From a bacterium (GTDB lineage Bacteria > SZUA-182 > SZUA-191 > JAJRXT01), in assembly GCA_024276125.1 (NCBI GenBank), contig JAJRXT010000096.1:1-64000 (forward strand): a DNA stretch of 64,000 bases, in the 5' to 3' direction. A program made the position numbers and the translations under genes. Shown here in pieces: positions 4,679 to 57,850 of the stretch (the first letter of the stretch is position 1; each line of letters starts with the position of its first letter). A model generated the notes under the pieces. That model did not search any database and was not told where the DNA came from. It saw only the letters and a list, made by a program, of their open reading frames with translations.

Positions 4679-5359
4679 TCACGCCGCCCATTTTGGAGCA
4701 AGCGCCTTTAAACCGGTCTGCCCGTTAGGGCTGGCCATTAGGCAAAAGAGGCTGGCTTCTGATTTTTCATCTGCATGAATAAATTGTAATTGTTTGGGTT
4801 CAATATTATACTGTTGCATCATTTTAAATAATTCAGCTAAGCGCTGTGCCGTATAAATAAGGTTTATTTTACCCCTGTTTTTAACCAGATAGCAACATGC
4901 TTTTATTAGCTGCTCCATATTGACCGATAATTCATGCCGGGCGCCAGCAATATTGCTATTGGGGTTTATACGACCGGCGCCGCACTTCCAATACGGCGGA
5001 TTGGCAGCTAGCGCATCAAATTCGTGCGGGTCAAATAATGAGCCGATATCCCGCATATCCCCTTGGACAATAGACATTTTATGCTCAAGGTTATTTATTT
5101 TAACATTTTCTTTGGCCAATGCGGTTAATTAAGGCTGTAATTCCAGTCCTATCACTTGTTTTACTTCAGGACGCTTGGCCAGTATAAGCCCGATAATACC
5201 GCAGCCGCAGCCAAGATCAATCACGCGTCCTGCCAGTGGAATAACAGCAAAATCAGCTATTAACAAGGCATCGACTGAAAAACGATATCCATTTTGCGAC
5301 TGAAGCAATTTTAAGCCGTGCGATTTTATTACATCTAATGTATGATTCTGGATGTTCAT
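4679..5359 (-). pseudogene. TrmN6/YfiC-type tRNA adenine-N6 methyltransferase, one in-frame TAA
   Basis: A Rossmann-fold SAM methyltransferase resembling tRNA1(Val) A37-N6 methyltransferases. It shows RFSVDALLIADF, the SAM-binding VIDLGCGCGIIGLILA and the catalytic NPPYW. The frame is continuous over 227 codons except for codon 77, a TAA at 5129-5131. The interruption falls in GLELQP-stop-LTALAKENV, where Glu is the family-typical residue, so GAA to TAA is the simplest origin. No frameshift is needed. The C-terminus (..ALAPKWAA) also stops about 20 residues short of the family norm, right beside a family-A repeat. Unless the stop is read through or is an assembly error, the product is inactive. 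Confidence 0.8.
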
Positions 5360-5401
5360 TTTTATTTTAACTCATGTTACGCAAAAAATAATAATCTCAC
5401 C

Positions 5402-5579
5402 GTAGGGTGGATTAAGGGGTCTGGTATAACAGATATTCGTTATAAATTAAAGACAATACTTTTTATGAAAGAGTACCCCGAATCCACCACTAAGGTGTGG
5501 TGGATTCGCAACTGTCAAAAAACGTAATCCCAACATATTTTTTTAGAGTCTTTCCCTATATGAGCTTGATCCACCCTAC
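5402..5579. repeat. Family-F inverted-repeat element (GTAGGGTGGA ends)
   Basis: The ends GTAGGGTGGAT and its near complement ATCCACCCTAC enclose about 178 bp with an internal GAATCCACCA/TGGTGGATTC palindrome. Related copies or fragments are at 21174, 23688-23823 and 43108-43199. It fills the gap between the methyltransferase and truA. I see no gene inside. Confidence 0.7.
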
Positions 5580-5616
5580 ATTTAACTTAAGTCAACAGCA
5601 TTGGTCACACACCCTT

Positions 5617-6351
5617 TTAATATTCTACTTTGACTAAAAACAGTCCTTGCGCGGGAGCGGTAGGCCCCGCCTGTCTGCGGTCGCGTGCCGCTAGTATCTC
5701 TTTTATATCATTTGCGTCTATTTTATTGCGTCCCGCCTCTACTAAGGTACCCACAATGTTTCTTACCATATGGCGCAAAAAACCGCTGCCTGTTATTTCA
5801 AATATAATAAAGTTATTTTGTTCTTTTATAGTTAATGTTAGTATAGTTTTCACTGGGTCATTGGAGCTGCAACCGGAGCCTTGGAATGACCCGAAATGAT
5901 GCTTACCCAAGAAACAAACAGCGGCGGCGCGCATATTATCTATATTTAATGGACTTGGAATATGCCAGCTGTAATTGCGCTCAAATGGAGAAGGATATAA
6001 GCCGGTCAGAATTCGGTATACATATTTTTTAGTCTTAGCCTGATAGCTGGCGTGAAAATCAATCGGCATATCTTTTGCACCGATTATCACAATATCAAAC
6101 GGCAACATGCTGTTTAGCGCCTTAGGCAGGTTTTTTTCCGGTATATTATGTTCGGTTATAAAATGAGCGGTTTGTTCTAAGGCATGCACTCCGGCATCAG
6201 TGCGTCCTGAGGCATGCAGGCGGACATTTTTGCTGGTTATTTTAGACAGTTTTGCTTATAAAACCCCTTGTATGGTTCTGGCTCTTGGTTGTACTTGCCA
6301 GCCTGAAAAATTAGTCCCGTCGTAGGCAATTGTCAATTTTAAATTACGCAT
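5617..6351 (-). pseudogene. truA: tRNA pseudouridine synthase A, one in-frame TAA
   Basis: Makes pseudouridine at tRNA positions 38-40. From the ATG at 6351 the 245-codon frame has [13 protein letters not shown], the catalytic GRTDAGVHA, and the C-terminal GSGFLRHMVRNIVGTL. Codon 32 is TAA (6256-6258), between RTIQGVL and AKLSKIT. E. coli TruA has Glu here (SVQEKLEKAL), so GAA to TAA fits. The reading frame is otherwise perfect. An in-frame GTG at 6189 could start a truncated product, which would lack the N-terminal strand and the catalytic Asp region. It lies downstream of ecfT, as in the Firmicute ecfA-ecfT-truA order. Confidence 0.9.
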
Positions 6352-6455
6352 TTTTTTATGTTTATGTTTCGGGGTGTCTCATCCCGAAACGCCTAGATAA
6401 TGTTTCGGGATGAGACATCCAGAAACATATAAGCGACCAACGGAAACGTAGGGGC

Positions 6456-6614
6456 AATGCTGTTGAATTAAGAGGATTCTGTACAAAAATGGCGCTTCTT
6501 AGCCTGTCATTCTTAAGGCCGTAAGGCCGAAGAATCTCTCCCTGCGATAGCGAGCAGATTCTTCATTCCGCTTCGCTTCATTCAGAATGACAGCTCTCTT
6601 AAGTCAACAACATT
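6456..6614. repeat. Family-A palindromic repeat with outer arms
   Basis: Core at 6505-6592, outer arms AATGCTGTTGAATTAAG and TTAAGTCAACAACATT. It lies between ecfT and truA. The rest of the gap (6360-6431) holds a TGTTTCGGG/CCCGAAACA palindromic repeat. Confidence 0.85.
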
Positions 6615-6660
6615 GAAGCGTAGGGGGAATTACCCTAAAATCGACCGAGGCGCCACACCT

Positions 6661-7434
6661 CTAAAAGCAAGATATTATCATCACTAACATTACCATTGCA
6701 ACAACTATATAGTCTTTATGGTATAGTTTGAATGGATGCAGCCTGCTTCTTGTGCGCTTAACCGAATAACCGCGGATGTGCATAGCCAGCGCTACATTTT
6801 CGGCTTTTCGCTCGGCGCCTATAATAAGCGGCAGAATTAACACCAAAGCGTTGCGGGCTTTTTGTATTATATTACCCTCGCCGATAATTATACCTCTGGC
6901 TTTTTGAGCCATTAACAGACGATGAGATTCTGAAAATAATACGGGGACAAACTGCATAGCCAAAGTAATCATCATAGCTAAAGCGGCTGTCGGCAGTCCC
7001 AGACGTTTTAGCGGGGACAACATAGACTCCAGGCCTTGAGTAAGCCGTATGGGCGAGGTGGTCAGCATCAAAATACTTGAGTTCATTATAAGCAGCGCTA
7101 AACGCAAACTTATCAATATACCCATGTATAACCCTTCATAGGTAATTCGCCAACCGGTAAAAATATAACGGCCCGGCGTAAAAAATACATGGAATATTAT
7201 ACCAAAAATAAACAGCCATTTTAGCGAATAAAGGGCTTTTAATATTTTAGCATACGATATACGGCCAAGGGCTATCGCCAAAAATGTTATAGCAAAAACC
7301 AGCCCTAAGCCTAAAATAGAACAAAACGAGGCGCAGATCAAGCCTAAGAGCGCTAAAAACTTTATACGCGGGTCTAATTTATGAATACAGCTATTGTTAT
7401 TATTATAAGTTGGAGCGGCTATAGATTTAAACAA
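6661..7434 (-). CDS. ecfT: Energy-coupling factor transporter transmembrane protein EcfT
   Basis: The membrane coupling subunit of an ECF vitamin/metal importer. The 257-residue protein has about five to six hydrophobic segments (around residues 27-55, 70-90, 105-125, 150-165, 205-215, 240-257) and the two Ala-Arg-Gly-type coupling-helix motifs, AQKARGI and AMHIRGY, which dock onto the ATPases. It apparently starts at TTG (7434) without a clear ribosome binding site. No EcfA ATPase or S-component is adjacent, so its partners are elsewhere. truA follows on the same strand about 310 bp downstream. Confidence 0.9.
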   Translation of the reverse strand: MFKSIAAPTYNNNNSCIHKLDPRIKFLALLGLICASFCSILGLGLVFAITFLAIALGRISYAKILKALYSLKWLFIFGIIFHVFFTPGRYIFTGWRITYEGLYMGILISLRLALLIMNSSILMLTTSPIRLTQGLESMLSPLKRLGLPTAALAMMITLAMQFVPVLFSESHRLLMAQKARGIIIGEGNIIQKARNALVLILPLIIGAERKAENVALAMHIRGYSVKRTRSRLHPFKLYHKDYIVVAMVMLVMIISCF

Positions 7435-9812: not shown

Positions 9813-11543
9813 ATGCCAAACTACAAAACTCAGGCTATAAGAAAATTGAGCGCTCAGGTGGATTCCCTGCGTCTTGGCATGGGTTGGTCTTGCGATGATT
9901 TATCCAAACCGCATATTTTGATAAATTCCACCAGCGGACAGACTCATCCGGGCAGTATTCATCTTGACGGCTTAGTTGAACAGGCATATATCGGCATATT
10001 TGAAGCCGGTGCAAGAGCAATAAAGACCTGCATCAGCGATGTATGCGACGGTATTGCCCAAGGACACTGGGGTATGCGCTACAGTCTGGCGTTCCGTGAA
10101 GTAATGGCGCAATTAGTGGAAATACAGGCGCAAAGCCAGCAAGCAGACGGGCTGATTCTCATTTCGTCCTGCGATAAATCTATACCGGCGCATTTAATCT
10201 CAGCGGCAAGACTAGATATTCCGGCAATTTTAATACCGGGCGGCTCCATGGATACTGGAGCCGCAGGGCTTTATCAAGGAGATATACCGGCTAAGTTTTT
10301 TCAACTTAAAAAAGGGGAAATCTCGGCTTCAGAATTCCAGCGTTTATCAGAGGATGCAGCTCCCACTTGCTGAGCCTGTCAATTTATGGGTACGGCTTCC
10401 ACCATGCAGGTATTGGCTGAAGCTTTGGGTATGGCGCTGCCCGGCAGCGCTCTTATACCGGCTAAATCTCCACATATATTAAGGCAGTCCAGACAAGCTG
10501 CTGGAGCGCTTATAAAAAATTTTATTCCTCCGCACAAAATTCTTACCCAAAAAGCTTTGGAAAATGCTATTATAGTGCATGCGGCAATTGGCGGATCATC
10601 TAATGCCGCATTGCATTTATCTGCCCTAGCTTATGAATTAGACCTGTTGATAGACACCCATACATTTGAGGCTATACACCGGAGGATTCCTTATTTAGCT
10701 AATATCCTGCCTTCCGGGGTTTATCCCGCTCAATATTTATGGTATGCCGGCGGCGTACCGAGGATTATGTGGAAATTAAGGGAATTTCTACATCTGGATG
10801 TTTTGACTGTTACCGGAAAAACATTGAGAGAAAACCTTGAAGAATGTGAAAAAAGAGGGTATTTTAATAGATATAAGGGGTATCTTAAAAATTTTAATCT
10901 AAAAAGTAAGCAAATTATTTATTCAGTAGAAAATCCTATCTGTACTCAGGGTTCGCTTACTGTACTTAAAGGGAATCTGGCGCCGGAAGGGGCGATAATA
11001 AAGCATATCGCTTTAAGTAAGAATATGTATACTTTTTGCGGTTCCGCCGTGGTATTTGACAGTGAAAATCGGGCTCAAGAAGCGCTTTTCCATGGACACA
11101 TAATTGCGGGTTCTGTGATAATAGTACGGTATGCAGGTCCCAAAGCCTGTGGTATGCCGGAATTATACTTGTTATCGCAAGCCATTTGTCATTATCCTGC
11201 TCTTAAAGGCAAGGTAGCTTTAATTACGGACGGGCGTTTTTCAGGGGGTACGGCGGGACCGTCAGTAGGACATGTAAGTCCTGAAGCCCAAGCGGGCGGG
11301 ATTATTGCATTAGTTGAAAACGGTGATATAATTAAATTAAATATAATAAAAAAATGTTTAGACATTATAGGTATAAACGGCAAAATAATGAATGAGCAAG
11401 AAATAAATAAGGTTTTAATTCAGCGAAAGACCCGTTGGAAACCGCCAAAACCTAAATATAATAAAGGCGTACTCGCTCTCTATACCAAACTTGCCGCCTC
11501 AGCCATAAAAGGAGCTTATATGGAGGTATCAAATGCTGATTAG
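9813..11543 (+). pseudogene. IlvD/Edd family dehydratase (sugar-acid type), one in-frame TGA
   Basis: An Fe-S dehydratase, 577 codons, full family length. The likely cluster cysteines are present: SDVCDG (Cys78), SSCDKS (Cys120) and APTC (Cys186). Codon 187 is TGA (10371-10373) inside the motif TC-stop-AC, which in relatives reads T-C-G-x-C, so GGA to TGA is the likely origin. After the stop the frame runs on through GTASTM, LPGSAL, CTQGSLTVLKGNLAPEG and DGRFSGG to the end. Codon 187 lies in the cofactor site, so a truncated product is dead. The neighbouring KdaD-like gene suggests an aldonate (sugar acid) substrate rather than dihydroxy-isovalerate. It overlaps the next gene by 11 bases. Confidence 0.85.
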
Positions 11544-12219
11544 ATACAATAAAATCGTTGATCTATCTCTTAAATTAAGAAAAAATATGGCCATATATCC
11601 TGGTGATCCGCAAATTGACATACAACCGATAAAAACTATTGCTAAAGACAACGTCAATATGTTGAGCGTGAAATTAGGCACACATAATGGCACACATATG
11701 GACGCCCCCAGACATCATATACAGACCGGCTACTCACTGGATAGATTCCCTCCCAGCTATTTTGTAAACAAAGCCATGAAGATTGATTTGGTTCCCGATA
11801 TTGAAGGACCCTATACGGCTTGTAAATAGGGAATACTATATCGCAAAGTAATTACTGAGCAGGATTTAGAACCATTTTTAGCTAGAATGTCATGGGTTGA
11901 AGCTGTTGTTTTTCATACCGGTTATGGAAAATTATTATCCAAAGGTATTGTGGATAAAGACTTTCCCTATCTTGACGTATCCGCCGCCGTATTATTGGTA
12001 CGCCATAAAACCTTACGCGTGGTGGGGCTTGATTCATTAAGCGTGGATATGCCCGGAGACAGTAAAATTCACCAAATCCTATTTAGCAATGGCCGGGTTT
12101 TACTACTTGAGAGCCTAACCAATTTAGAAAAACTGCCTTTGAGTTTCACTCTGTGCTGTATGCCTTTATTGCTTGATAATTCAGACGGCGCTCCGTGCCG
12201 CACTATCGCTTTATGCTGA
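11533..12219 (+). pseudogene. Cyclase/kynurenine-formamidase family hydrolase, one in-frame TAG
   Basis: A metal-dependent hydrolase of the 'putative cyclase' fold, 229 codons. It has IVDLSLKLRKNMAIYPGDP at the N-terminus and the metal-binding HNGTHMDAPRHH at residues 54-65. Codon 99 is TAG (11827-11829) between PYTACK and GILYRKV; the frame continues with no shift through HTGYGK and VVGLDSLSVD. GAG (Glu) or CAG (Gln) are plausible ancestors. It sits between the dehydratase and the FAH-family gene in a tight operon. In that context a sugar lactonase-like or acyl-hydrolase role is possible, but this is inference. Confidence 0.8.
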
Positions 12220-13455: not shown

Positions 13456-14115
13456 CTAAGCACAATCAAATCCCTCCAGCGGACAGCCGGTACAACGCGG
13501 TTTTCTACTGCGGCAGTATTGTTTGCCTGTATATACAATCTGAGCGTGAAATTCATTATACAACCTGACATCTACCGGCAGACGCCTTTCAAAAAAATCC
13601 TGTATATCATAATAGGTATAAGTCTCCGGGAAAAATCCGTGTCTGCAAAATATACGTTTGGTATAAGCGTCAATTACAAAGACCGGTTTGCCAAGAGCAT
13701 ACAATAAGATACTATCCGCCGTCTCAGGCCCTATACCATAGACCCCGAGCAATTTATCCCTTAATACGGGCAATTCCTCAGCGCACATATTTTCAATAGA
13801 AGAATCATATTCCTGCTGAAAAAAGGCGGTAAGCGCTTTTAGCTTTTTGGTTTTCTGTCGGTAATAACCGGACGGTCTAATCAATTCGGCTAACTGCTCA
13901 TCCGGCGCAGCGGACATAGCGGATGCAGCCAGCATATTATACGCTTTAAGATTGGCAATTGCCAACTGCACATTACTCCATGCGGTATTCTGAGTAAGTA
14001 CGGCGCCAACCATTATCTCCCAAGGGCTGTCCCCCGGCCACCAGTCAAGCTCCCCGAAAACAGCTAACATCCGCCGATAAGCCTGCATTAATAAAAAAGC
14101 ATAATCTAATGTCAT
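13456..14115 (-). CDS. Endonuclease III-like HhH-GPD DNA glycosylase
   Basis: A base-excision-repair glycosylase, 219 residues. It has LTQNTAWSNV near residue 40, a helix-hairpin-helix LLGVYGIGPETADSILLYA, the catalytic Asp in VFVIDAYTKR, and a C-terminal 4Fe-4S loop with Cys spacing C-x6-C-x2-C-x5-C. The hairpin has Glu where Nth has the lyase Lys, which suggests a monofunctional glycosylase of the endonuclease III-domain/MagIII type. It is in line with the trp-cluster genes but separated by 250 bp of hairpins. Confidence 0.87.
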   Translation of the reverse strand: MTLDYAFLLMQAYRRMLAVFGELDWWPGDSPWEIMVGAVLTQNTAWSNVQLAIANLKAYNMLAASAMSAAPDEQLAELIRPSGYYRQKTKKLKALTAFFQQEYDSSIENMCAEELPVLRDKLLGVYGIGPETADSILLYALGKPVFVIDAYTKRIFCRHGFFPETYTYYDIQDFFERRLPVDVRLYNEFHAQIVYTGKQYCRSRKPRCTGCPLEGFDCA

Positions 14116-14150
14116 ATTATAACCTAAGCCTCAATTTATCTATAAAGGAT

Positions 14151-21726: not shown

Positions 21727-23523
21727 CTAATCCAACAAGTCCAAACTCGCAATCAACTGTCGCAGCAATGGGTCAACCTGAGCCTGAGCGGCGCACTCGT
21801 CAATCCAATCCTTAGCGTCGGCAACGCCGTTATTATAACAACCATCGGTTTTATTTAACACTTTTTGTGATTTTTTCTTCGCCAACCGATAAAGTCTCTT
21901 TTGTTTCTTAGGCTTATTCGACAAATTCTCCGCTGCAATAATAGTATATTTTATGGCCAGCATTTTCTTATTTAATTTTTTCCTAAAGCGGCATTTATTC
22001 TTCTTAAAGGCGCTGCAAGGAAGTTCCTTAATAGTAGAACGAATCCGCTCTGCCAGCGCAGGCAGGTTACAGCCCTCATCAACCTGACCATTACAGTTGT
22101 TATCAACCGAATCGCAAACCTCAACCGCGCCCGGATTTACAGCCGGATTGCCGTCATCGCAGTCTACCTCTGTACCGCAGCCTGTAATGGCAAAATATCC
22201 GTCGCTATCAGCATCGGTACATACCAGAGTTTCATAAGCCCCCATATCAGTATTACTACCTAGAATGCGCGGATTGCCGTCTAAATCAGAAGTAATCGCC
22301 GTATCGGAATTTCCGGCATCTATAGCAGGCGAACCAACCGCCAGATGATAATCATTACCCTGTGCATCCACAAACAGCGGGTCTGCGAATATATTATTAT
22401 TCTGTCCCGCATAATCATCAATAAGAGAATAGCTTATCCCCTGGAGGCTGGACTCTGTAATAGGTTCAGTGACTGAATAAGCGCTATCCAATCCGGCAAA
22501 CATATTATCAGCGCCATTGTTCCAGAAAATATTATTTTTAATTACAGCCGCTGATTCACTGACCTGCATTCCGCCTACAGAACCGGGTAAAGAACCGACA
22601 TTATCGGCTACAGTATTATTCACCATTTGAGCATTTAGCGTTAAATTATCAGTATATATTCCACCTACGGCATCGGCTGTATTTTTAACGATTAAGTTGT
22701 TGTTTAAATTCCCTGAAAAGTTCACTATAAAAAGGCCGCCTCCGCTGCCTGTCGCGGCTTTGTTTGCTCTTATCGTATTATGGCTGATACTACAAGCTGA
22801 ATCGCTTACAAATAATCCTCCGCCCTGCATATAGGCGGTATTTTGAATGATTTGATTGAATTTAATGATAGGTTTGCCAGCGGAAATATAAAGACCGGCT
22901 CCGGCTCCGGCCAAGTTGTTGGAAATGTTATTATTTACTACGCTGCCGCTTGATTCATCCAGCCTGATACCGGCTCCGTCTCTGGAAGATGTGTTGTTAT
23001 AGATACTATTACCGCTTATTGTTCCGCTATAAGCGCGAACATAAATACCCGCGCCGCTTGCGGCCTGGTTATTGGTAATTATGTTATCCGTGATGTTAAT
23101 AGAGGAATGGGTCAGTTTTATGCCGGCGCCAATCGGCGCTTTACCGCCCGTTATGGTAAAACCGCTTAAGGCGGCTGAGGTAATTCTTTGTCCGTCTATA
23201 ACTCTTGCACCGTTTGCAGCATCAAGTATAACGGTATTTTTATTCTCGCCAATTAGGGATACGCCGTCTTTTAGGTATAAGGGAAAGGTTTACCCATTAA
23301 TAATAGAGGAATAAGCGCCGGCGGAGGCGTGTATAATATCGCCTTTTTGGGCTTGAACCAAGGCATAGGTAATGGTTTGCCACGGAGCGCTTACTGAGCC
23401 GTCATTTGCATTATTACCGCCGACAGCAACATAATAATCCGCCGCCCATACATTTACCGAAAAAAACATCGCCCATAGTATCATTGCCAGGCTTTTTTTT
23501 AATAAACCACCGCATCGCTTCAT
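21727..23523 (-). pseudogene. Secreted right-handed beta-helix protein with MopE-type metal-binding repeat, one in-frame TAA
   Basis: A 599-codon gene: signal peptide (residues 1-27, cut after VWA), ADYYVAVGGNNANDGS typical of DUF1565-type starts, then a long parallel beta-helix with NNxI repeats (about 90-380). Next come a Cys/Asp-rich DxDx[29 protein letters not shown] segment (putative metal-binding repeat) and a basic helical C-terminus ending in the KTDGC..DAKDW..C domain. Codon 78 is TAA (23290-23292) between SSIING and [14 protein letters not shown]. Relatives read NGETFPL here, so GAA to TAA fits. The frame is otherwise open, with a TTG at 22914 as the first alternative start after the stop. 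Confidence 0.85.
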
Positions 23524-25540: not shown

Positions 25541-27763
25541 ATGTATAAACAACACATTCAGCAGCAAATAGTAATTGCAGGTTTTAAAATGTACTGGAAA
25601 AACATCGGTCTATTACCGAAATTAACTCTTATCTTCGTCAGCATCATCCTGTTTCCTATGATTTTAAGCATTATAGTTACCTCTCACATGATAGAAAGCA
25701 AGCTGATAAACTCCAAAAAACAGGAAGGATTATATGCCGCCCAAATGATCTCCGACGCCATGAGAGCATTGGAAAAAAAGGCTGACACTTGTATCAATTT
25801 TATACGTAATGATCAAAATCTGATTCAAAGAATCGATCTGGCCTCATCCAGCGGCAGTAAAACTAAAGACAATCAGCTTAATAAAAAGCTAACCAATATA
25901 TCCAAGATGTTGGGTATAGAGCTGCTCCAGCTAACAACAGCCAGCGGCAGGGTGTTGTTCAGCTATCCCGACACATTACCGGTAAATAAAAAAACAGCCG
26001 CCCAAATTAAGCGTTGTACATCAGAAGAATTAACCAGTTTCATTTTATCAAAAAAAACATCCGCTATTATAAGCTATATGGATTCTATTTGTTTTGAGGA
26101 TAATGCCGAAAATATCATCATTCGCGCTGGTTTTTTTCTGGATAAAAACTGGCTCGGATTATTAAGTTCAAACATTAATACCAAATTGGGCTTAATTGTA
26201 GATAACAAATTGATTGCACATTCATTTGAACATAAACTGCCCTTACAAGAAGATATTTTTGAAAAAATAAAACAAACCGGTAAAATACAGATGTCTCATC
26301 AATCCAAAGACCCCCTAAACCTTTTAAATCGTCAATGGCTAAATAACTATCTGCTGGTTTATATACCTGTTAAAAACGAACAGGGTAATGTTTTAGCGGC
26401 CATAGTAGCCGGAATAGATAAACGTGATGTAAATACGGCCATAAATCAATCTAACACTATATTATCCCTTATTACCTTTATCTTTATTTTTATAGGAATT
26501 GTCATCAGTTACTATCTGTCACTGCGTTTGGTAAGACCTTTGGATAAACTGGTATCCGGTTCCAGACGAATTTCTCAAGGTAACTTTGATTATAAAATCA
26601 AAACCCAGTGCGGAGCGGAAATTGGTTTGTTGGCCAGGTCATTTAACCAAATGACTCTTAATTTAAAAAAGAATATCGAACAAAAAGAACAATATTTAAA
26701 AGAATTGGAATCATCTAACGAACTTTTAAAGCAAAAACAGGAAAAAATCGAACAATACAACATAAACCTAGAAGAAAAGGTCAAGGAAAGAACAAAAAAA
26801 CTAAACAACCTAAATGAAGAACTCTTCAGTAAAAATAATCAATTAAATTTAACTATGCAGGAGCTGAAATCTATTCAGTCACGAATGCTGTAATCACAAA
26901 AATTGGCCGTCGTAGGAGAAATCGTCGGTAAAGTCGCACATGAGGTATTAAATCCAGTATCCGCCATGCTGACCAGTGTTGAACATAAATTGGAAACATC
27001 CCATCAATCTATAGATACAGTAGAGTTAATTAAAGAAATTTTATTAGACTGGGAGACACATTTTAATAACGGAAACTTAGAATCATATTTACAAAAAACC
27101 GTAGAAGGACAAAAAGAAAAAACTTTTGGTCAAGAAGACTTTGAATCTATGTATGCGTTAATCCGACAATTTACCGAACATATAAAAGAAAATAATAAAG
27201 AATGGGAATTCTTGCATCACCATATATTAAGAGTGGTCAAAATAGTCGACGGCTTAAGAGTGGTGGCCAGGCGCAAAAAAACCGTTGAAGAGCTGGATAT
27301 CAATCAACCCTTAAAAGAAGCATTGGAATTAATGAAAGAAAGCCTAAGAAAACAACAAATTGAACTATCACAAAAACAACCGGTTGATTTGCCCAAAATA
27401 AAAGCCGACTTCAATGAAATGCTTCAAGTCTTTTGTAATCTCATTAGAAATTCCATGCAGGCTATTACAGAAAAAAACGAACACAAGGGCGGTAAAATCG
27501 CCATTGAAACCATGGCGAATAAGGCAAAACTATTAATCAAAATTTCAGATACAGGCAATGGTATTTCAAAAGAAAATATGGCAAAAATTTTTGACGCCAA
27601 CTTTACCACCAAAGGACGCCATGAAGGAACCGGCTTGGGACTGAATATAAGCCGCCGGTTTATTAGAGAATGCGGCGGGGATATTAAAGTGGAAAAAAGC
27701 TCCAAAGAACAAGGAACAACTATGGCGATATGGCTGCCGCTAAAACAAGGTAAACATTTATGA
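25541..27763 (+). pseudogene. Membrane sensor histidine kinase, one in-frame TAA
   Basis: A 741-codon kinase: TM1 at about residues 25-48, a periplasmic sensor region (50-300), TM2 near 305-328, HAMP (330-382), a coiled coil (about 385-450), DHp helix with the phospho-acceptor in VGKVAHEVLNPVSAM, and an ATPase domain with NLIRNSMQA, SDTGNGIS and GTGLGLNISRRF. Codon 451 is TAA (26891-26893) in QSRML-stop-SQKLAVVGEI, just before the H box; relatives have Gln or Glu. The DHp domain has an unusual helical insertion of about 85 residues after the His. It overlaps the next gene by 4 bases (ATGA). If the stop is real, sensor and catalytic halves are separated. Confidence 0.87.
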
Positions 27764-29874: not shown

Positions 29875-29929
29875 CAAATCAACAGACCTAAAAGTATACA
29901 AGTATAGGGTTTACATACCGGCAATTTTA

Positions 29930-33410: not shown

Positions 33411-34430
33411 TTACACATAAAAGGGGCCTGCTTCCCAAACGTATTTGGCCAAAAAGTCAAAATCAAGCTCTATATTACTTAGCAGGCTATATATTTTCTG
33501 ACAAATATAAATTTTTATTTTTAAACCGCAATCAGGGTCTTTTTTCATTATATTTTCAAAACTCGAGTTTTTGATAATCAAAATCTGACAGTCTTTTATA
33601 GCTTGAGCTGTAGCTTAATGCTTCTGTGCCTCCAACAATGATAATACGCCAAAATATTTCCCCTCTTTGAGTATCGATAAAGTAACAAGTTTATCTTATT
33701 GCACCTTTTTACTGATTTTAACCGCTCCGCTTTGGATAATATATAAATTACCGCCGGCAATACCCTCGGAGAAAATCTCCTCGCCAGTCAGATACTCCCG
33801 CTTAACTATTTCTGGATATATGTTACTTTTTTGCGTCTCATTGAGGCAGGTAAATAGGTCTATTTTATCAATATCTTCCAGCGTGACTTTACTTAATCTG
33901 GTTACAATATCTTTTGGGGCGCACAAATTGTCTTTTTCTGAATCAGTTGCAAAGCGGCTGCCATATAATTAACCGTCAATCATATAATATACCACATCAA
34001 CATATTTTTCATCCATTTTGCGTGATAGATGACACAAATAGATAATTATACTTTTTATGATTTTTGCGGCAATACGGGGTTCTTTAGCGCTAAAATCACT
34101 AAATTCAGCCCACGGAAATACCAAGACAATGCAATCCGTAAGGGCAATGGAATCCTCTTTATATCTGGCATCAGCCGACATAGAAAAATTACCCAAATAT
34201 GCCCCCGGTTTAACTACGTTTATTTTTTGCTCTTGCTTTTTCGGAGAAAATTTTTCACGCCTTATCTGGCCTTGGCACAACAAGTAGAAATTATGAGCGG
34301 GTTTCTTCTCTTTATATAGATACTTACCTTTATCGTACTGTACTTTTTGTACTACTTTAGCTAAAGCCGCAAGTTCATCTGCATCAAGTTCATTAAATTG
34401 AGCTATTTTTTGTAATTCCTGAATATCCAT
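33411..34430 (-). pseudogene. Double cyclic-nucleotide-binding-domain protein, three in-frame TAA codons
   Basis: A 340-codon frame with two CAP_ED-type cNMP-binding domains in tandem. Domain 1 covers about residues 10-140 (FNELDADELAALAK, GKYLYKEKKPAHNFYLL). Domain 2 covers about 185-310 (FTCLNETQKSNIYPEI, GEEIFSEGIAGGNLYIIQSGAVKIS, GKYFGVLSLL, ATAQAIKDCQILII). TAA codons occur at 154 (33969-33971), 245 (33696-33698) and 272 (33615-33617); the frame never shifts and the fold pattern continues past each. Glu is plausible at each site. The start at 34430 has GGGAGGA upstream. There is no DNA-binding domain, so it was probably a cNMP-controlled or adaptor protein. The Gly-Glu pair of the phosphate cassette is Gly-Val, consistent with decay. 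Confidence 0.8.
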
Positions 34431-37138: not shown

Positions 37139-37795
37139 TCAGCTTAATATCTTCAGCTCATTTTCCCGTATCTGTATTCCCTCGATTTTAGTAGTTACCG
37201 GATAATAAAACCAATCCGGTACAAACTTATATAGCAACGTCAGCATAAAACCGGGTATCCTTTGTTTGCCAATAATCATATATATAGGATTTAAGAATAA
37301 TCTGCCGCTTTCTTCAATTACCGGCAGAGTAACCAAAGTAATCGTAAGTTTAGTTCTTTTATCCCCTCTAGCTCCAGGCTTTAGTTTTTGCTTTTCTTTT
37401 TTGGGATCAAATATAATATCCCTAAAGGTCTTAGGAACTAAATCAACCAGCAATACTGTAGCCTCAATTTTAAGCTCATCCTGTTCCATATCTACCTTAA
37501 GCGACAACAAGGGCTTATGACGTTCTTTATATAATTAGTCGTGCAGGGCGGAATTAACCTCCAATTCATTTAAAGTGATCTGCTTTATATTTTCATTGGC
37601 ATTAAACAATTCTAATTTCTGCCGACAACGCTTAGAGGCCACTCTGGAGGTAAGGGTCAGAATTTGTTCTTGTATTGGAGGCTGATAGAATATATTTTTA
37701 TTTAAACTGATAAAAGCCCAAAAAGATAATATAAAAACTGCCCAAATGAATATAATTATTGTACTGCATCCCATAAAACCTTTTTGGTTGCGCAT
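37139..37795 (-). pseudogene. Membrane-anchored protein of unknown function, one in-frame TAA
   Basis: A 219-codon frame with one N-terminal transmembrane segment (about residues 10-30) and a predicted beta-rich outside domain. ITLNELEVNSALHD sits near residue 73-86 and KIEATVLLVDLVPKTF follows. This layout (N-terminal TM, 'LTxxELN', then strands) recalls YpmS/DUF2140-like proteins, but that is tentative. Codon 87 is TAA (37535-37537), between ALHD and LYKERHKP, with no frameshift. A TTG at 37510 could start the downstream half. It lies just downstream of ymdB and upstream of the giant FG-GAP gene, on the same strand. Confidence 0.65.
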
Positions 37796-37833
37796 ATATC
37801 TTATCCCTTTAAAAAAAGTAACCTATTCCAAAT

Positions 37834-40800
37834 TTATCTAAAATATTCCATCAGACTGCCTTTAACGCGTTTCATGGAAAAGCCCGGCTCTCGTTCGGTC
37901 ATAACATATAAGTCATCAAGCCAACAAGTACCCTCTATAAGTCCGCCCTGAGGCCACCTTACTAAATAAATAAATATATAATGCGTATCTTTTTTGGTAG
38001 AAAACGGTACGCTTAACAAAGTCCAATCATTATTACCCAACAAAGTAGAAGATTGCGCATTAAAATAACTCTTTTTATTGCTGGCGACATATGGAGCCTC
38101 ACTTCCTTCCACATAAAGCCTTACCCCCTGACCGCCGGTCAATCTTTCGGTTTTTACATAACCGGTTAACAAATATTTGCTATTGGGTTCAACCGGAATC
38201 GGCCCTTGTGATAAGTGCCTGTACTGAAAGTCCCTTTCACCTGTAAAACGTACCTTGCAAGATTGTACTCCAGTTTTAGCCATAGTAGGATCAATGGTGG
38301 TAACAGCCCCTATGATAGAGTCGATACCTATTAGTTTACCGGCGGAAGAGGTGTATTTCCAGCCTGAGAAGTCTTCTTCAAACCCGGGATTTGCCACCAT
38401 TCCGGCTTTTGCTGTCTTAAATGTATAGCTCTCTTCCAGCATATGTGGTGGATTAGACAAATCCGCCGCTCTTACGTATACATTAACTATTTGGTCAAAA
38501 TCAAATACGCTTAGGCTGTGTTTTAATTTATATTCATGTTTATTTCCGCTTATATCAAAATAGACCGGATCATCATTTATTTTAAGCGCTATACTGGATT
38601 TGTCAATACCCGTTCCTGGATCGCTGATATTTACCCAAATAGCGCTATTTACCGGAGCCCTATCCTCATCAGCCATAGGATAGCGTCTGGTTATATAAGG
38701 CGCTCGCAAATCATAAACCTTGACTTCTTTAGAAACAGAAGCATCATCCAGCGCGCTTACTGTAATGGTGGCATCGCCATAAGCAAGGATTCTATGCTCC
38801 CAAACATTGGTACTGGTGGAAGAAATATATACAGTACCGGTATAAACCCCTGAGCTGGCCATAGTTTCCGTCAATTTCAGACATAAGGGACGAACATATT
38901 CGGAAGTGCTGTCTATTAACACCTTAGCTACATTTATACGGTTAGGATCGCCGTCTTCACCAACTAATTGTATATCAAGCCTGCTTTCGTCCTCATTTTG
39001 ATATAAAGAAACTTCTATTGACTCAATTTTTTTAGGCGGGGTATTTTCACCCGTCCAAACCAGATAAGTCTCACCGGCATCCTTATCGCCCTCATCATTA
39101 CCCCATGCGCCGATCAAAAAATCATCATAACCGTCTCCATTTACATCGCCGGCATAACTTAAAGCGCGGCCAGCCGCATCACCCGCTTTCCGCCCCACAT
39201 AGGCCAACTGGCTGAAGGCAAGTGATTTATTTTTAGCCCAACCGGAATCACGACCCATTATCACATAGGCTTGTCCCTGATTATTTTCATTAGTCAGCTC
39301 GCTTCCCCATGCGCCCACCAAAAAATCATCATAACCGTCTCCATTTACATCGCCAGTATAACCTGCGGATAGACCGGCGGCATCTCCGCTTTTTTCTCCG
39401 ACAAAAGAAGCGGAAGCCTCGGCCAGTTGATACTCATCTTTCCACACTTTCCTGCCGAAAAACAGATAAACCTGACCGGCATTAGTACCGCCCTTATCAT
39501 TAGCCCACGCTCCAATAATAAAATCGGCAAAATTATCCCCATTTATATCTCCGACATAACTTAGGTGGCTGCCCGCCGAATCATTAGTAGCCTCTCCCAT
39601 AAAAGATACCGCCTTGCGAGCTATCTTCGCCTCCCAGCCCCAGTCACCTGAATGACCAAACACCAAATAAGCTTTCCCTGCAAATTGTTTTTCACTGCTA
39701 TATGCCGGAGCGCCAATTAAAAAATCATCATAACCGTCTCTGTTTACATCCCCGGCATAAGCTATTGCTTTACCTAATTCATCACGTGGATGTTCACTTA
39801 CAAAAGAAGCGTCGCTGCGTTTTAATTTTGTATACAATTTCCAGCCATATGATTTACCCAATATTAAATAAACCTGACCGCCGTCTTCTCCTGATACATC
39901 ATTTGCCCAAGCGCCGATCACAATATCGTCATACCCATCGCCATTTACATCGCCCACATAGCTCATTGCAGAGCCAACACGATCGTGAGTTGCATCTCCC
40001 ACAAATGAGGCCGCCGCCTCACTTAGGCTGACACCGGTAGTCCAACCGCTTGCCCGACCCAATATTAAATAAACCTGACCCGCCTTATCGCCGCCGTGAT
40101 CATTACCCGGCGCGCCGATTAAAAAATCATCAAACCCGTCTCCGTTTACATCTCCGGCATAGGATATTTTTCTGCCTGATTCATCATACATATTCTCGCC
40201 GATAAACGAGGCATCTGCTTTTGCAATATCAATATTTTTCTGCCAGCCATGCGGTTTGCCTAAAAATAAATAGGTCTGACCGGCATCCGTTCCACCTTCA
40301 TCACTTCCCCATGCGCCGATTAAAAAATCATCAAACCCGTCTCCGTTTACATCTCCGGCATAGGCCACACTGGCTCCAGAAGCATCGTGGCGTTCTTCTC
40401 CTACAAATGAAGATACGCTGCGAACAACGCTCAATCTAGGAGGCAGCGATACATAAAGCTTTTGATCTTTTAGGCTGCTTACATCTGTTTCCACTTTAAG
40501 ATAATTGGGAGCGCTTATTACTACGGTTTCCTTAAGAGGGGATTCTTTTAAGTGCATGGTATATGAACCATCCTTAGCTGTAGTTTCAGTGCGTCCCGCA
40601 TAAGTCAATTCAGCCCCGGCTACTCCAATATTAAAATAATCATCTCTTATTTTACCGTATACTCTCACCATCTTATCTATCTTTATTGACAGGTAATCCT
40701 GCCAACGCGGAACTTTATTATCATACAAAGTAAAGCCCAACTCAAGTTTATGTCTATCTGGACAATCCGGCGATACGGATAGTATAAATTTGTCCGTTGT

Positions 40801-42882
40801 TGTTTTTGCTTTACCGGATGCGATTTGCCCAAAGTTGCTGGTATCTTTAATAATTTTTACATATTTATCCAATGCGGTTATTTTAGCTTCTATTTTTGTG
40901 TCTTTAAAAAAATTATTACTTAAATTAAGATTTAATTCAACAGTCTCACCGGCCTCTAGGAAACCGTTTCCATTTCCACTGCTTTTTCCTTCTTTGTCAT
41001 CATCAACGGAAAAACCAATAATGCTTACCTGCTGCCCCGCCAACAAATGTTTTTTCGGATCATCTTTAGAGATTATTTTAAGGATATCCCCCGGTTCAAG
41101 TTTTAATTCCCGACTAAAGCGGCTGGTACGGCTTTCCACCAACTTAATCCTGTTGCGATAGATACCGCTATTTTTTCTGGTTTCCGTTAAGGCAACTTTG
41201 ATTGGCTTACCTTGTTTGCTTTTTACTAATACTCGGGCAACATTCCTGGAGTTGGGATCGGCATCTTCTCCCTCTACCTGAATATACACATAGCTGTTAA
41301 TTTTAACCTCTCCCTTAAGATCAGCCTTATAAGTATCATCCTTTTTTAAGCTTATTTTGTCAATCCGTTTAGGAGGCACATTCAGTTTGGGAAATAAAAT
41401 ATAAGATTGTCCGGCAGAGTGAGCGGCTTTTTTACTCGATTCGGCGCCTACAATTATATCCGCTATCCCATCTGCATTAATATCTCCCACATAAGATATG
41501 TCATTACCCGATAAATCATTCTTTTTTTCACCCACCAGGATTAAATCAGCTAAAGCGGCGCTCATATTTTTCCCATAATGAGAGGGTTTTCCCCAGAACA
41601 AATAGGTTTTACCGCTCTTTTTACCTTTTTTACCTTCGCCGCTGCGGCTAGCGCTGATTAAAAAATCATCGTATTTATCCCCGTTTACATCTCCTGCATA
41701 AGAGACAGAAATCCCAAAATGATCCTTTTTTTTCTCACCCAGTATACTTGAATCAGCTAATGACAAAGATGTCCTCATCCGCCAGCCTTTGGCCTTACCA
41801 TATATCAAATAACATTTACCGGCTTTACTACCGGTATCGCTGTTATTTTCCGCTCCGATAAGTATATCCGAATACCCGTCATTATTGACATCCCCCGCAT
41901 AAGATACCGATATTCCGGCATTATCTTTAGCTTTTTCCCCTATAAAAGAAGCATCGGCAGTTGTTATGGGCACATTTTTTTTCCAGCCATCTTTACGTCC
42001 TAAAATCAAGTAAGCCTGTCCGCTGTCTGCTCCAGCCTTATTACTAAATGGAGCGCCCAATAAAATATCGTCCAAGCCGTCGCCGTTTACATCCCCAGCA
42101 TACGATATTGAAATACCTAACCTGTCGTCACGGTCCTCGCCCATAAAACTAGCATCTGCATAATAAAGCCTCATTCTGGGCTCCCAGTTTTTTCTGCCAA
42201 AAATAAGATAGCATTTTCCGGCATGTGTCCCGCCGTCATTATTATTATAGGCGGCAATTAAAATATCATCAAAACCGTCGCCATTTACATCTCAGGCATA
42301 CGATACAGCGCCGCCTGCCGTATCCTCTTCGCGTTCTCCGGTAATAGCCACATCCGCTTTTTCCAGATCATAAACCCTATCCCATTTTTTTTTGCCAAAA
42401 ATAAGATAACATATACCGGAATTCTCCCCGCTATGATCATTACCATAAGCTCCGATTATGATATCATCAAAACCGTCGGCATTTACATCTCCGGCATAAG
42501 ATACGGCTATACCGGCATTATCATTAGACTCCTCTCCTATAAAGCTTACATCAGCCTCATGCAGAGTTTGATACATTCCCCAACCCGTTATTTTTCCGAA
42601 AACTAAATATACTTTACCGGCATTCTCTCCCCCATCGTCATTATTATGCGCAGCCACGATAAAATCGTCAATACCATCGCCGTTTACATCTCCGGCATAT
42701 GATACGCTGGAGGCTGCATTATCGTATTTATTCTCTCCGGTAAAAGAAGCCGATACCTGGGATAAGCTAATTTTATTGGTAGGCTCAGCATTTGCACAAA
42801 CAACGATCGCCAGACTAATATTAAGAGCTGTCAGAAAAAAAAACAGCCGGCGGCAGTATAATATTGAATTATTCAAACACAT
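37834..42882 (-). pseudogene. Giant secreted FG-GAP protein with two seven-blade propellers, one in-frame TGA
   Basis: A 1683-codon gene: signal peptide (about 10-32, cut near CANA), then seven FG-GAP blades, a linker with an EDADPNSRNVARV domain and a carboxypeptidase-regulatory-like segment, seven more blades, a second EDGDPNRINVAKV domain, an Ig-like segment and a C-terminal CBM4/9-like jelly roll (VANPGFEEDFSGW). Each blade has SYAGDVNGDGYDD with the DxNxDGxxD calcium site, as in integrin alpha subunits. Codon 197, in blade three, is TGA (42292-42294) where sister blades have GGA (SYAGDVNGDG), giving direct internal evidence for G-to-T. Downstream, an open frame of 1446 residues starts at ATG 42174 but lacks a signal peptide. 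It probably acts on the cell surface, in adhesion or polysaccharide binding. Confidence 0.9.
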
Positions 42883-43344
42883 ATTTGTAAAGAAACCTTA
42901 TTAGTAAGTCATATTACGCAAACCCTGCTTTTAAATATAGGGTGGGGCAAGCCCGTATCATGAAAGAGCCTATAACATATGCTTAAGCATACGTTGTTTT
43001 AATAGTTGCGGACCCGCCATATTTGTAGCATTGAATTCTCAAATTCGATGCCTCGTTAGCTGCCAGATTTGAGAATTCGGCAGTCACAAAGATTGCTCGC
43101 TGCTAGGTGTGGTGGATTCGGGGTAATCTTTTAATAAATTATTGTCTTTAATGTATAACGAATATCTGTTATATCAGACCCCTTAATCCACCCTACGGCA
43201 ATGTTATTATTTTTTTGCGTAACATGAGTTAGACATAAATCTTATTGATTTTGTTATCCTGTAGGGGTAGGTTTTAAACCTACCCCCTACTTCGGGAAGG
43301 CACAAATTCATCCTACGTTTTAATTATCTAAATTATTCTTCTTG
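42883..43344. other. Intergenic region with family-F and palindromic repeats
   Basis: AGGGTGGGGCAAGCCC, a palindrome with TGAATTCTCAAATTC..GATTTGAGAATTC (about 43030-43080), and a family-F right half (43108-43199, ending TAATCCACCCTAC), then a GTAGGGGTAGGTTT hairpin. No gene was found. Confidence 0.55.
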
Positions 43345-44766
43345 CTAAAACGAAAAATAGCGCAATATATTATCAAACATTCCGACTGGTTCTTTTGTTT
43401 TAGCCGCATCTTTTTCGCTTTTTTCTTCGGCGGCTATTTCCTTGTCTCCCTCTTCTTCTATAACCTCTGGAGTAAATGGTGCAGGAGCGCCGCCAAATCC
43501 TAAACAGCCCTTAACCTTAAAAGACTTAAAGACCTCCTCCATATCTTCGGGTATTTCCTCTTCTTTTTCTTCTTTTATATCTTCTTCCGGGGTAAAGGGC
43601 GGCAGAAATTCTATAGGAAGTCCCCCGGGAGAATCCCAAAAAGGCTCTAAACCCAAATTATAAATCAGCTCATCCTTGTTTAAATAAAAAATTTCGCTTT
43701 TTGTTGTTTCTATTCCTCCGACCACTTCATTATTTCCCATTATGGCCTTTGTATTCTTTAATACCATGGTATTGCGGCCGGGGGATTCCTCGCTGTAAAA
43801 GTTGTTATTGCTTATACGTACTCTGGCGGTACTAAACTGTATAATATTGGGCAAATTGCCTGATGCTTCATTGGAATCCACCACCCCTTGTGATGAGTTT
43901 TTAAAATAAATAGCCTCAGCTCCGTTTTCCGAAATACTATTTTTATATAATTCAACTATTGAATTTTGATCAACATTTATACCCACTGTACCATTACGCG
44001 TCACGCTGTTGGTTACTATGCGCGCTTTTGAATTAGTGGTGACTGTAATACCCACCAGAGCATTATACTTGATATTATTACGAAGAATAATAGCTTTTGC
44101 ATCATCCCTTACCACCACTCCAATACCATTATGGTGTATATAGTTTTCTCTTATCATAGGAGATGCAAAATAAATGCTGACAATTCCCACATTTAAGTTG
44201 CTGTACACCTCATTATGTTAAATAACTGATTTGCTGTACTGACCGTAATTGGCAATACCGGCTCCCCCATTACCGTAAATTTTATTACCGGCAACCATTG
44301 CCAAGGTAGGGTAAACCTCAGAATGTATGCCTAATGCGGTAAAGGCATTATCTCGTATAATATTGTTGGTTATAGTGGGAGCGCCTCTGGTGACCATTAC
44401 TGCATGCCCCAAACCCGCCCCTCTGGCGCCGGTTACCGTAAAACCGGTAAAGGTGCAGTCGCCTGAAATAATCATTATTGCATCAGGAGAACCCTCTCCG
44501 TCGTCGGTTAGTATCGTTCTTTGGGGGTCTTCTCCTATCATGGTACGCCTACCGCTTAACAATAAATTACCGTAATAGGTTCCTGCTGAGACTTTGATTA
44601 TAGCATCGGTCTCGGAAGCGTCTATGGCTTTTTGGAGATTCGAGATATCCTCGGGAACATGAATGATCTGCTGTGCATAAACATTATTGCAACTAATATG
44701 CCCCAACATAACCGGAACAAGCATAATCAGCATGAAATAATAATATCTTTTGAAATTATACAACAT
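43345..44766 (-). pseudogene. Secreted NosD-like parallel beta-helix protein, one in-frame TAA
   Basis: A 474-codon gene: signal peptide (about 10-32, cut near VYA), IIHVPEDISNLQKAID, then a NosD/pectate-lyase-type right-handed beta-helix with repeated N-N/I-x-x-N turns (about 80-330). The last 80 residues are low-complexity and acidic (PEEDIKEEKEEEIPED, EEEGDKEIAAEEKSEKD). Codon 183 is TAA (44218-44220) in the helix, between YSKSVI and HNEVYSN, with the frame unchanged. Gln, Glu or Lys would fit. A GTG at 44208 could start the second half, but without a signal peptide. It lies upstream of, and on the same strand as, the FG-GAP gene. Confidence 0.82.
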
Positions 44767-45279
44767 AATAAACAGTAATATAAGGGGGTAACTTTGATAA
44801 AAGGTGATTCAAGACAAGCATATGAGGCTCTTGCAAAAATACCTGTCACTCCCGAAACCTTTATCGGGAATCTAATTTAGATTCCCGCTCAAAACCGTTG
44901 CGGGCATGACAGGGGAGACTTTTGCGAGAGACTCGTATTGAAGATTATAAGAATTTTGTACATATTATTGGATAACTTTTATCAAATAAAAATTCCCTAC
45001 ACATCTAAAGAAAGTCAGCAGTGTCCGGTTAGGTTTTTGCATAAGCTCCAAAGTACCTTTTTTAGTCCTCTCTCCCCCCTGGGGAGAGAGTTAGAGTGAG
45101 GGGAAAATAAAAGAAACTGCCCCCTCACCTTGATCCTCTCCCCAAGGGGAGAGGGGAAATAAGGAATTTTCTATTTAAAACTTGCCGGAATTATTGATTT
45201 TTCCGATATGCAAAAACCTAACCGGACACTGCTGAAAGAAAGTATACATTAGCTCAGATTAACTCGCGAATTATTCGGG
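44767..45279. other. Intergenic region with two inverted-repeat elements
   Basis: 44820-44940 holds an inverted repeat of CTCTTGCAAAA and CTTTTGCGAGAG enclosing a TGTCACTCC..CATGACAGG hairpin. 45015-45235 is a MITE-like element. No coding sequence. Confidence 0.6.
45015..45235. mobile_element. 221-bp MITE-like element with 29-bp perfect terminal inverted repeats
   Basis: The left end 45015-45043 begins TCAGCAGTGTCCGGTTAGG and the right end 45207-45235 is its exact complement. The flanks AAAGAAAG (45007-45014) and AAGAAAG (45236-45242) look like a 7-8-bp target duplication. The inside holds CTCTCCCC/GGGGAGAG palindromes and no transposase. It is a non-autonomous derivative of a DDE-type insertion sequence whose parent is not in the window. 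Confidence 0.75.
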
Positions 45280-51369: not shown

Positions 51370-51490
51370 GAATATAATCTTTTTCGTAAGAGAAATCAAC
51401 AGCTATTTTATACAATTATGTTTACCATATCGTTTCGGCTTGAGACAAACCGAAACATAAACATAAAACATAAAACATAAAGGATATTTT

Positions 51491-52387
51491 ATGAAAATTT
51501 ATCATCTTAATATAATTATTATTGCATTTATGTTAATATTAAGCGGCCTATTATTTACAAATACGTACGCAGCCGCAGCCGGTTCATTGGATGTATTTGT
51601 CAGTATTCCGCCGCAGGCATACTTTGTCTCCCGCATAGGGGAAGGATATGTCAGGGTTCATACCTTGGTTGGCGCCGGTCAAAATCCGCATACGTATGAG
51701 CCAAGCCCAAGACAAATGATGGCTTTAGGCCGGGCTAAGCTTTATTTTAAACTTGATGTGGAATTTGAGCGGGAATTACTGAAAAAAATTAAAGGCGCCC
51801 ACCGGCAGCTTCCATTTATAAATACGGCATAGGGCATAAAAAAACGCATGATGAGCGCGCATCAGCATGATAAGCATCATACTGACACACACACAAATGT
51901 CAAAAGCGACCCGCATATCTGGCTTGCTCCGCCGCTTATAAAAATTCAGGCGCAAAATATCGCAAATGCCTTAATTAAGGCAGACCCAGGTCATAAAAAA
52001 GAATACGAAATAAACTTAAATGGATTTATTAAAGAGCTTGATGCAATAGATAAAAAAATAAAAGAAGCGTTATCACCTTATAAAGGAAAAGATTTTTACG
52101 TTTTTCATCCCTCGTTCGGATATTTTGCAGATGCCTACGGTCTTAAACAAAAAGCTGTGGAAATACAAGGAAAATCCCCAACGCCCAAACAGCTCTCAGC
52201 GTTTATTACAAAAGCCAGGGCGAATAATATAAAGATAATATTCGTACAACCCCAATTTTACCAGAAAAGCGCATCGGTTATAGCCGGCGCTATCGGCGGT
52301 TCTGTGGTGTCTATTAATCCATTGGCAAAGGATGTAGTTAACAATCTGAACAAGATAGCCGCAGAAATTGAAAAGGCGCTTAAATAA
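51491..52387 (+). pseudogene. znuA: Zinc/metal ABC transporter substrate-binding protein, one in-frame TAG
   Basis: The periplasmic metal-binding protein of a ZnuABC-type importer. 299 codons: signal peptide (7-33), VFVSIPPQAYFVSRIG, the ligand His in GAGQNPHTYEPSPRQM, a His-rich loop (HQHDKHHTDTH), DPHIWLAPP, FVFHPSFGYFADAYGL and a C-terminal Asp/Glu site. Codon 114 is TAG (51830-51832) in NTA-stop-GIKKRMM; family members have Glu or Lys, so GAG to TAG fits. The frame is unbroken, and a downstream ATG at 51848 would make a fragment lacking the signal. AAGGA precedes the ATG. znuC and znuB follow intact. Confidence 0.88.
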
Positions 52388-56561: not shown

Positions 56562-56723
56562 AGGGGCTGGCTCCCGCTTCTGTCCGGCAATAAAAATAGT
56601 GTTTGATATGGTAAGGATAACAAGATGTAGATACGGGTAAGATATGTAAAAAGATGCTTGATTTTATTCAAATTTTACGCTATAAAATATAAAGAGGGTC
56701 TGGAAGACTTTTCTGTTTTAAAA

Positions 56724-56762
56724 ATTTAGGGCGGCTGAATACCTTATTTAGCCGCCCTAAAT
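56724..56762. terminator. GC-rich hairpin, possible terminator
   Basis: 13-nt perfect arms ATTTAGGGCGGCT / AGCCGCCCTAAAT around a 13-nt loop, 160 bases after the pilin-like gene. There is no clear T run on either strand, so intrinsic termination is uncertain. Confidence 0.45.
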
Positions 56763-56879
56763 CATAAAGAGGGTGGAGGGTGGCTGTTATGTTTCGGGGG
56801 ACTCACCCCAAAACACACTTGGCGCTAAGCAATATGTTTCGGCATTAGACATACCAACAACATCAGGTTATTTATATTT

Positions 56880-56948
56880 GTCACCCTGAGCGAAGCGAAG
56901 AATCTTTCAACCTACGTAAGCAGACCCTTCGCTTCACTCAGGGTGACA
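56880..56948. repeat. Variant family-A repeat (GTCACCCTGAG form)
   Basis: TGTCACCCTGAGCGAAGCG..CACTCAGGGTGACA, a diverged subfamily with CCCTGAG/CTCAGGG ends. Confidence 0.7.
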
Positions 56949-56994
56949 GTAAAAAAAACATTAAAACCTATTATAGAAACATAGCTTTTATACT

Positions 56995-57073
56995 TGTCAT
57001 TCTGAATGAAACGAAGTGGAATGAAGAATCTACCCCCATGTGCGAGGAGATTCTTCGCTGCGCTCAGAATGAC
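56995..57073. repeat. Family-A palindromic repeat
   Basis: TGTCATTCTGAATGAAACG..CGCTCAGAATGACA upstream of the transaldolase gene. Confidence 0.8.
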
Positions 57074-57202
57074 AAACATAAAACATATTACAGAAACAAA
57101 GATATATACCGCTTATTTACCATTTAATTAAGATATAAACCATTTTAAAATTTATAGGCCAGCGCAATAATTATCTTACCAATTTACAGATAAGGAACAA
57201 CA

Positions 57203-57850
57203 ATGGATTTCTTTATTGACACCGCAAATATTGATGAGATTAAAGAGGCTCACGCCTTGGGATTAGTTGACGGAGTAACCACCAACCCCAGTTTAATAGC
57301 CAGAGAAGACAGAGCCTTTGAAGATATTATTCCCGAGATATGCTCTATTGTAGAAGGACCTATAAGCGTTGAAGCGGTAAGTCAGACCGCGCCTGAAATA
57401 ATTAAAGAGGCCAGATAGCTGGCAAAGATAGCCTCGCAAATCGTAGTGAAAATCCCTATAAACCAAGAAGGGCTAAAAGCGGTTAAGGTATTGGAACAAG
57501 AAGGTATATCAATAAATGTAACTTTAGTCTTTTCTCCCACTCAGGCGCTGCTGGCGGCAAAAGCCGGCGCAACCTATGTGAGTCCCTTTGTCGGCAGATT
57601 AGATGATATAAGTCACGTAGGAATGGACCTGGTTGAATAAATTGTAACCATTTATGAAAATTACTGCTATGACACCCAAGTTATTGTAGCCAGTATCCGC
57701 AATCCCAACCATGTGGTAAAAGCCGCCTTAATCGGCGCTCACGTAGCCACTATTCCATATAAAGTTATATCACAGCTTATTAAACATCCATTAACCGATG
57801 CGGGTATGCAAAAATTCTTGGACGACTGGAAGAAAGTACCTCAGAAATAA
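57203..57850 (+). pseudogene. tal: Transaldolase (TalC/FSA type), two in-frame stops
   Basis: A small transaldolase/fructose-6-phosphate aldolase-like barrel of 216 codons, family length. It has [27 protein letters not shown], the Schiff-base Lys in [36 protein letters not shown] and ASIRNPNHV. Codon 72 is TAG (57416-57418; EAR-stop-LAKIAS, usually Glu or Lys) and codon 146 is TAA (57638-57640; DLVE[12 protein letters not shown], usually Glu or Gln). Shortly after, the family Gly in NYGFDT is Cys (TGC), again one G-to-T step. No frameshift. AAGGA precedes the ATG. As written it cannot make an active enzyme. Confidence 0.88.

Follow-up and report, generated by a model that had tools for sequence, protein, structure and literature searches.

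Changes of the genetic code that are known from bacteria concern UGA only (PMC8629427), and a code in which UGA means glycine (Gly) is cited in the same source for Gracilibacteria and Absconditabacteria. The nuclear code of Blastocrithidia reads UAA and UAG as glutamate (Glu) and UGA as tryptophan, with UAA also serving as a stop, and employs tRNA-Glu species with the anticodons UUA and CUA (PMC12153298). Among the artefacts of sequencing, G-to-T damage by 8-oxoguanine is well documented for library preparation (PMC12390751, PMC8748355). Here, fifteen in-frame stop codons in twelve genes of a 64,000-nucleotide stretch of bacterial DNA, referred to as the window, are described. The window comprises positions 1–64000 of the 65,357-base contig C37 (JAJRXT010000096.1) of the draft genome GCA_024276125.1 (G000; 2,979,475 bases, 159 contigs, 94% complete), whose source is an uncultured Schekmanbacteria-like bacterium. 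The stops probably represent errors of the sequence record and not features of the living cell.

The locus shares with Blastocrithidia that TAA and TAG stand in frame where relatives have GAA or GAG for Glu, and TAA would carry two meanings. However, Blastocrithidia possesses both cognate tRNA-Glu species (UUA and CUA) together with an altered release factor; neither feature was found in G000, where TGA moreover stands for Gly. Likewise, TGA occurs where relatives have Gly, as in the code cited for Gracilibacteria and Absconditabacteria, but release factor 2 (RF2) of G000 is intact, a tRNA-Gly(UCA) was not found and TGA still ends genes. With the 8-oxoguanine artefact G000 has in common G-to-T changes that are unseen in relatives, whereas it shows stop-making changes on the coding strand only, lacking an accompanying missense or clear noncoding excess.

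All fifteen stops reported in the preliminary description were located in the sequence. The reading frame is the same on both sides of each, and the claim that protein similarity continues past the stops is borne out by Pfam domains that cross them in seven proteins (methyltransferase, IlvD, cyclase, cNMP-binding protein, beta-helix protein B, ZnuA and transaldolase). Two of the stops are TGA (10371 and 42292), three are TAG (11827, 51830 and 57416) and the remaining ten are TAA. A look for the same stops in sister genomes had been proposed; the homologues in the closest relative (G001) or in other relatives read through these positions without a stop, the sensor kinase not having been compared with a relative. 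At 11 of the 15 sites a relative shows Glu (TAA and TAG sites) or Gly (TGA sites). Of the others, 33696 and 57638 allow Gln or Glu, 33615 is unclear, and at 26891 Glu follows from a kinase motif only. Every clear site is explained by a single G-to-T change in GAA, GAG or GGA on the coding strand. The sites are as follows (window coordinates):

5129..5131, minus strand: TAA in a methyltransferase gene (4682-5371); G001 has Glu (GAG) and G003 Asp; the Pfam domain MTS extends across the stop.
6256..6258, minus strand: TAA in truA (5620-6378); Glu in G001, G003 and G008, Gln in others.
10371..10373, plus strand: TGA in an IlvD/Edd-like dehydratase gene (9813-11543); Gly in 6/6 aligned relatives, GGA in G001; ILVD_EDD_N extends across the stop.
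11827..11829, plus strand: TAG in a putative cyclase gene (11509-12216); Glu (GAA) in G001; PF04199 extends across the stop.
23290..23292, minus strand: TAA in beta-helix protein A (21727-23550); Glu (GAG) in G001.
26891..26893, plus strand: TAA in a sensor histidine kinase (25541-27763); same frame on both sides, HATPase_c downstream, Glu suggested by the kinase motif only.
33969..33971, minus strand: TAA in a double cNMP-binding protein (33414-34598), between its two domains; Glu (GAA) in G001.
33696..33698, minus strand: TAA in the second cNMP domain of the same protein; Gln (CAA) in G001, hence Glu or Gln.
33615..33617, minus strand: TAA, also in the second cNMP domain of this protein; Thr (ACG) in G001, ancestor unclear.
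37535..37537, minus strand: TAA in a membrane-anchored protein (37142-37822); Glu (GAA) in G001 and G003.
42292..42294, minus strand: TGA in an FG-GAP repeat of a giant repeat protein (37834-42897); Gly there in nearly all aligned repeats of the relatives.
44218..44220, minus strand: TAA in beta-helix protein B (43345-44808); Glu (GAA) in G001; Beta_helix extends across the stop.
51830..51832, plus strand: TAG in a znuA-like zinc-binding protein (51467-52387); Glu (GAA) in G006; ZnuA extends across the stop.
57416..57418, plus strand: TAG in a transaldolase (57194-57850); Glu in G001, G004 and G006; TAL_FSA extends across the stop.
57638..57640, plus strand: TAA, the second stop in the transaldolase; Gln in G001 and G004, Glu in G006.

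The stop at 16072 is the true end of pabA; the internal stop of the sensor kinase is the one at 26891. The truA gene at 5620-6378 is the only truA found in G000, as the genome's two PF01416 matches both lie inside it. Essential-type genes (truA) are hit as well as accessory ones (the beta-helix proteins and the FG-GAP giant), as had been described. The window showed no frameshift; the earlier statement that indels are absent is therefore correct for this stretch, but elsewhere the sampled part of G000 contains two -1 frameshifts, one of them in an argS-like gene.

Beyond the window, stretches of other contigs totalling about 0.5 Mb, or about one sixth of the genome, were read. The homology scan for internal stops was run with frame selection as a guard against wrong-frame stops, and the counts beyond the window include coding-score and motif matches accepted by eye. 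The same lesion was found in map, rpsE and rpsH on the ribosomal operon contig, in nusA (two), rimP, typA (two), tex, clpX (two) and lon, as well as in a sigma-54 regulator, a ferredoxin-oxidoreductase-like gene and yicC. Furthermore, rpoC, which was found only once in G000, carries a stop in place of a Glu that is invariant in 8/8 relatives. The relatives' copies of the genes hit beyond the window are open. In the aligned genes of G000 about 27 such sites stand beside 3,031 intact Glu/GGA codons (about 27/3,058, 0.88%), and the stop density of the window (15 in 64 kb) lies above that of the rest of the sampled genome. Since only about 1 in 100 Glu/GGA codons is a stop, the remark that long genes such as ptsI, accC and trpE are clean carries little weight as a clue. 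At columns that are invariant in the relatives, where invariance was required in three or more of them, nonsense affects 6/714 Glu/GGA codons and is as common as overall; hence no selection on function is seen.

The relatives served as controls. By ptsI the nearest are the metagenome-assembled genome (MAG) Dive96_bin10.231 (G001; 82%), which belongs to the same family and originates from a vent chimney of the Southwest Indian Ridge, and then a Candidatus Schekmanbacteria MAG (69%). All relatives compared (G001-G008) are distant from G000, with a best protein identity of 82%, and ancestral residues at variable positions are uncertain. Internal stops were found at none of 27,698 aligned codons in G003 and none of 22,864 in G008, and those listed for G002 and G004-G007 resemble gene boundaries or wrong-frame alignments, as judged by eye. 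The internal stops of the window are thus more than chance. In G001 about five internal stops (rplB at Ser and Gly, trpE, lon and yicC), G-to-T and C-to-A changes among them, were detected together with about four frameshifts in conserved genes, which shows that the public data contain flawed drafts of this family. G001, an erroneous draft, and G000 are alike in having essential genes with nonsense codons, including G-to-T changes. They differ in that the nonsense density of G001 is about a tenth per aligned codon, with proportionally more frameshifts and one Ser-to-stop change.

Ordinary pseudogene decay of dispensable genes would suit the accessory genes of the window (beta-helix proteins, FG-GAP giant), but has practically no chance of being correct, as stops lie in essential single-copy genes including rpoC, rpsE, rpsH and clpX, and indels are few (2 frameshifts against about 27 nonsense sites in aligned genes of the 0.5 Mb sampled). 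A living G:C-to-T:A mutator lineage with genuine mutations was considered as well, since the lesions are of the type left by loss of MutY, an enzyme in whose absence mispairs of 8-oxoguanine with A may stay unrepaired. No MutY above the curated cut-off was recognised in G000, G001, G003 or G008, where only weaker EndoIII-like matches occur, and the class may lack this enzyme. A MutY-type mutator was nevertheless rejected, because MutY is likewise unrecognised in G003 and G008, which are free of such stops; in addition, there is no surplus of missense changes of this type, and rpoC, rpsE, rpsH, clpX, nusA and typA would be dead genes. A mutator lineage is therefore very improbable. Recent real substitution damage, one of the options of the preliminary description, cannot be upheld either, since the stops reach essential genes and in rpoC even an invariant Glu. 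Recoding would mean that, inside genes, TAA and TAG are translated as Glu and TGA as Gly, with all three codons still acting as terminators. The residue lost is Glu (TAA/TAG) or Gly (TGA) wherever the relatives are clear, several sites being ambiguous and none certainly otherwise; stops without matching missense changes are expected if the stops are silent, essential genes carry them at invariant Glu, and Blastocrithidia offers a precedent of UAR read as Glu with UAA also a stop (PMC12153298). An early dual-meaning code would leave stop-making changes only, also at invariant positions of essential genes. However, the search for suppressor tRNAs with Rfam, ARAGORN and BLAST of G000 gave 43 tRNAs with standard anticodons and none with UUA, CUA or UCA, although a completeness of 94% leaves some room for a missing tRNA. 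BLAST with the two tRNA-Glu and the tRNA-Gly revealed no altered paralogue in G000, and each of these tRNAs has an anticodon stem of 5 base pairs. Neither release factor is lost or altered: release factor 1 (RF1; 358 amino acids, PVT and GGQ motifs) and RF2 (356 amino acids, SPF and GGQ) are both intact. All three codons still end genes, as 95 of 100 conserved C-termini are followed by a stop within ten codons (TAA 55, TAG 30, TGA 10), and back-up (tandem) stops after gene ends show no clear excess over the relatives. An Rfam scan of the window gave no match, so that no selenocysteine element is seen. Moreover, recoding would call for three separate reassignments that proceed at almost the same rate, and the bacterial precedents are limited to UGA (PMC8629427). 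Recoding had been offered as an option; as a young dual-meaning code it is accordingly held to be very improbable. The specific form of it in which all three stops are at an early stage of gaining a second meaning (UAA/UAG for Glu, UGA for Gly; about 1% converted), read either by tRNAs that escaped recognition or, on altered ribosomes, by the normal tRNA-Glu and tRNA-Gly, retains a very slim chance.

With invariant residues of essential genes struck no less often than other genes, the sequence cannot belong to a cell that uses the standard code. The machinery of an alternative code is missing too, as far as a draft of 94% completeness can tell, and an erroneous record is thus the most probable reading. 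Single G-to-T changes scattered over the whole assembly would have produced TAA, TAG and TGA at about 1 in 100 of the codons GAA, GAG and GGA, and the organism's own DNA would be expected to hold sense codons at these sites. A codon-blind origin, by DNA oxidation (8-oxoguanine) or low-depth consensus error, would produce G:C-to-T:A changes everywhere, of which only the stops are easily noticed. All clear cases are G-to-T, the artefact is documented (PMC12390751, PMC8748355), and G001 of the same family has G-to-T and C-to-A nonsense plus indels. Such a process should also leave missense changes, but radical G-to-T missense at invariant columns was seen at 3/3,048 sites, where about 27 were expected at the genome-wide stop rate (relatives 1-4); by class, Gly to Val amounts to 0/959, Gly to Cys to 0/574 and Gly to Trp to 0/150. 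The comparison with nonsense (6/714) gives a Fisher p of 0.0023. A strand-symmetric G:C-to-T:A process further predicts that 31% of the stops derive from Tyr, Ser or Cys codons; none certainly does, 33615 being ambiguous, and the Glu or Gly origin of 22/22 stops has a chance of 2.6e-4 under strand symmetry. Recent noncoding repeat pairs of at least 93% identity, which are not independent, showed no clear excess of G/T mismatches, and the tRNA stems of G000 read by eye no clear G-to-T break; a 16S rRNA for the noncoding test was not found in G000. As neither missense nor noncoding G-to-T changes are in excess, a plain codon-blind process is insufficient. A variant limited to GAA, GAG and GGA trinucleotides on both strands, by which the Glu/Gly bias would arise by itself, may still apply: in these contexts the missense test, with about 8 extra events expected, has too low a power (about 6.5 events were counted at 953 sites, and 2-16 in the relatives). 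Codon-blind error is thus disfavoured and regarded as a doubtful, though possible, origin. Of the options in the preliminary description, that of a consensus error is supported as far as it concerns an erroneous record, but a plain codon-blind form of it is disfavoured. By elimination, the closest match to the stop-only pattern would be a hypothetical codon-aware editing of the record, be it manual or by software. The missense deficit, the lack of any certain Tyr, Ser or Cys origin and the missing noncoding signal count against a record error too: the changes seen are stop-making only, a pattern that only an alteration aware of the reading frame would explain, and the case was argued from the assembled sequence and the relatives alone.

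If the record is in error, a species-representative genome with many broken genes misleads annotation, pangenome studies and genetic-code screens. If the stops are real, they would mean a dual-meaning code for all three stops, which is unknown in bacteria. The stop-only pattern also offers a simple test, comparing nonsense with missense at invariant columns, that separates codon-blind error from recoding or altered records.

Several further observations were made. In contig C191 of G001 (L203), the in-frame stops of rplB lie at 15518 and 15956, at a universal Gly and a universal Ser, and frameshifts are present in the S11 and L23 genes at 4708 and about 16500. In G000 the -1 frameshift of the argS-like gene (L136, about 2516, contig C10) coincides with a stretch of six T; the reading frame would suggest seven. 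The weaker EndoIII-like matches of G000 are located in L351 (C31:11568-12104) and in the window at 13456-14130. The rpoB gene of G000 is divided over two contigs (L329 on C65 and L341 on C108). Additionally, a membrane protein at 29362-29910 of the window contains near-identical repeats of the motif RFDDMNRSIDKRFESIDK. Finally, a large family of short interspersed noncoding repeats has dozens of copies in the 0.5 Mb with 80-93% identity, for example at about 18300 in the window, at 11400 in L141 and at 9500 in L136.

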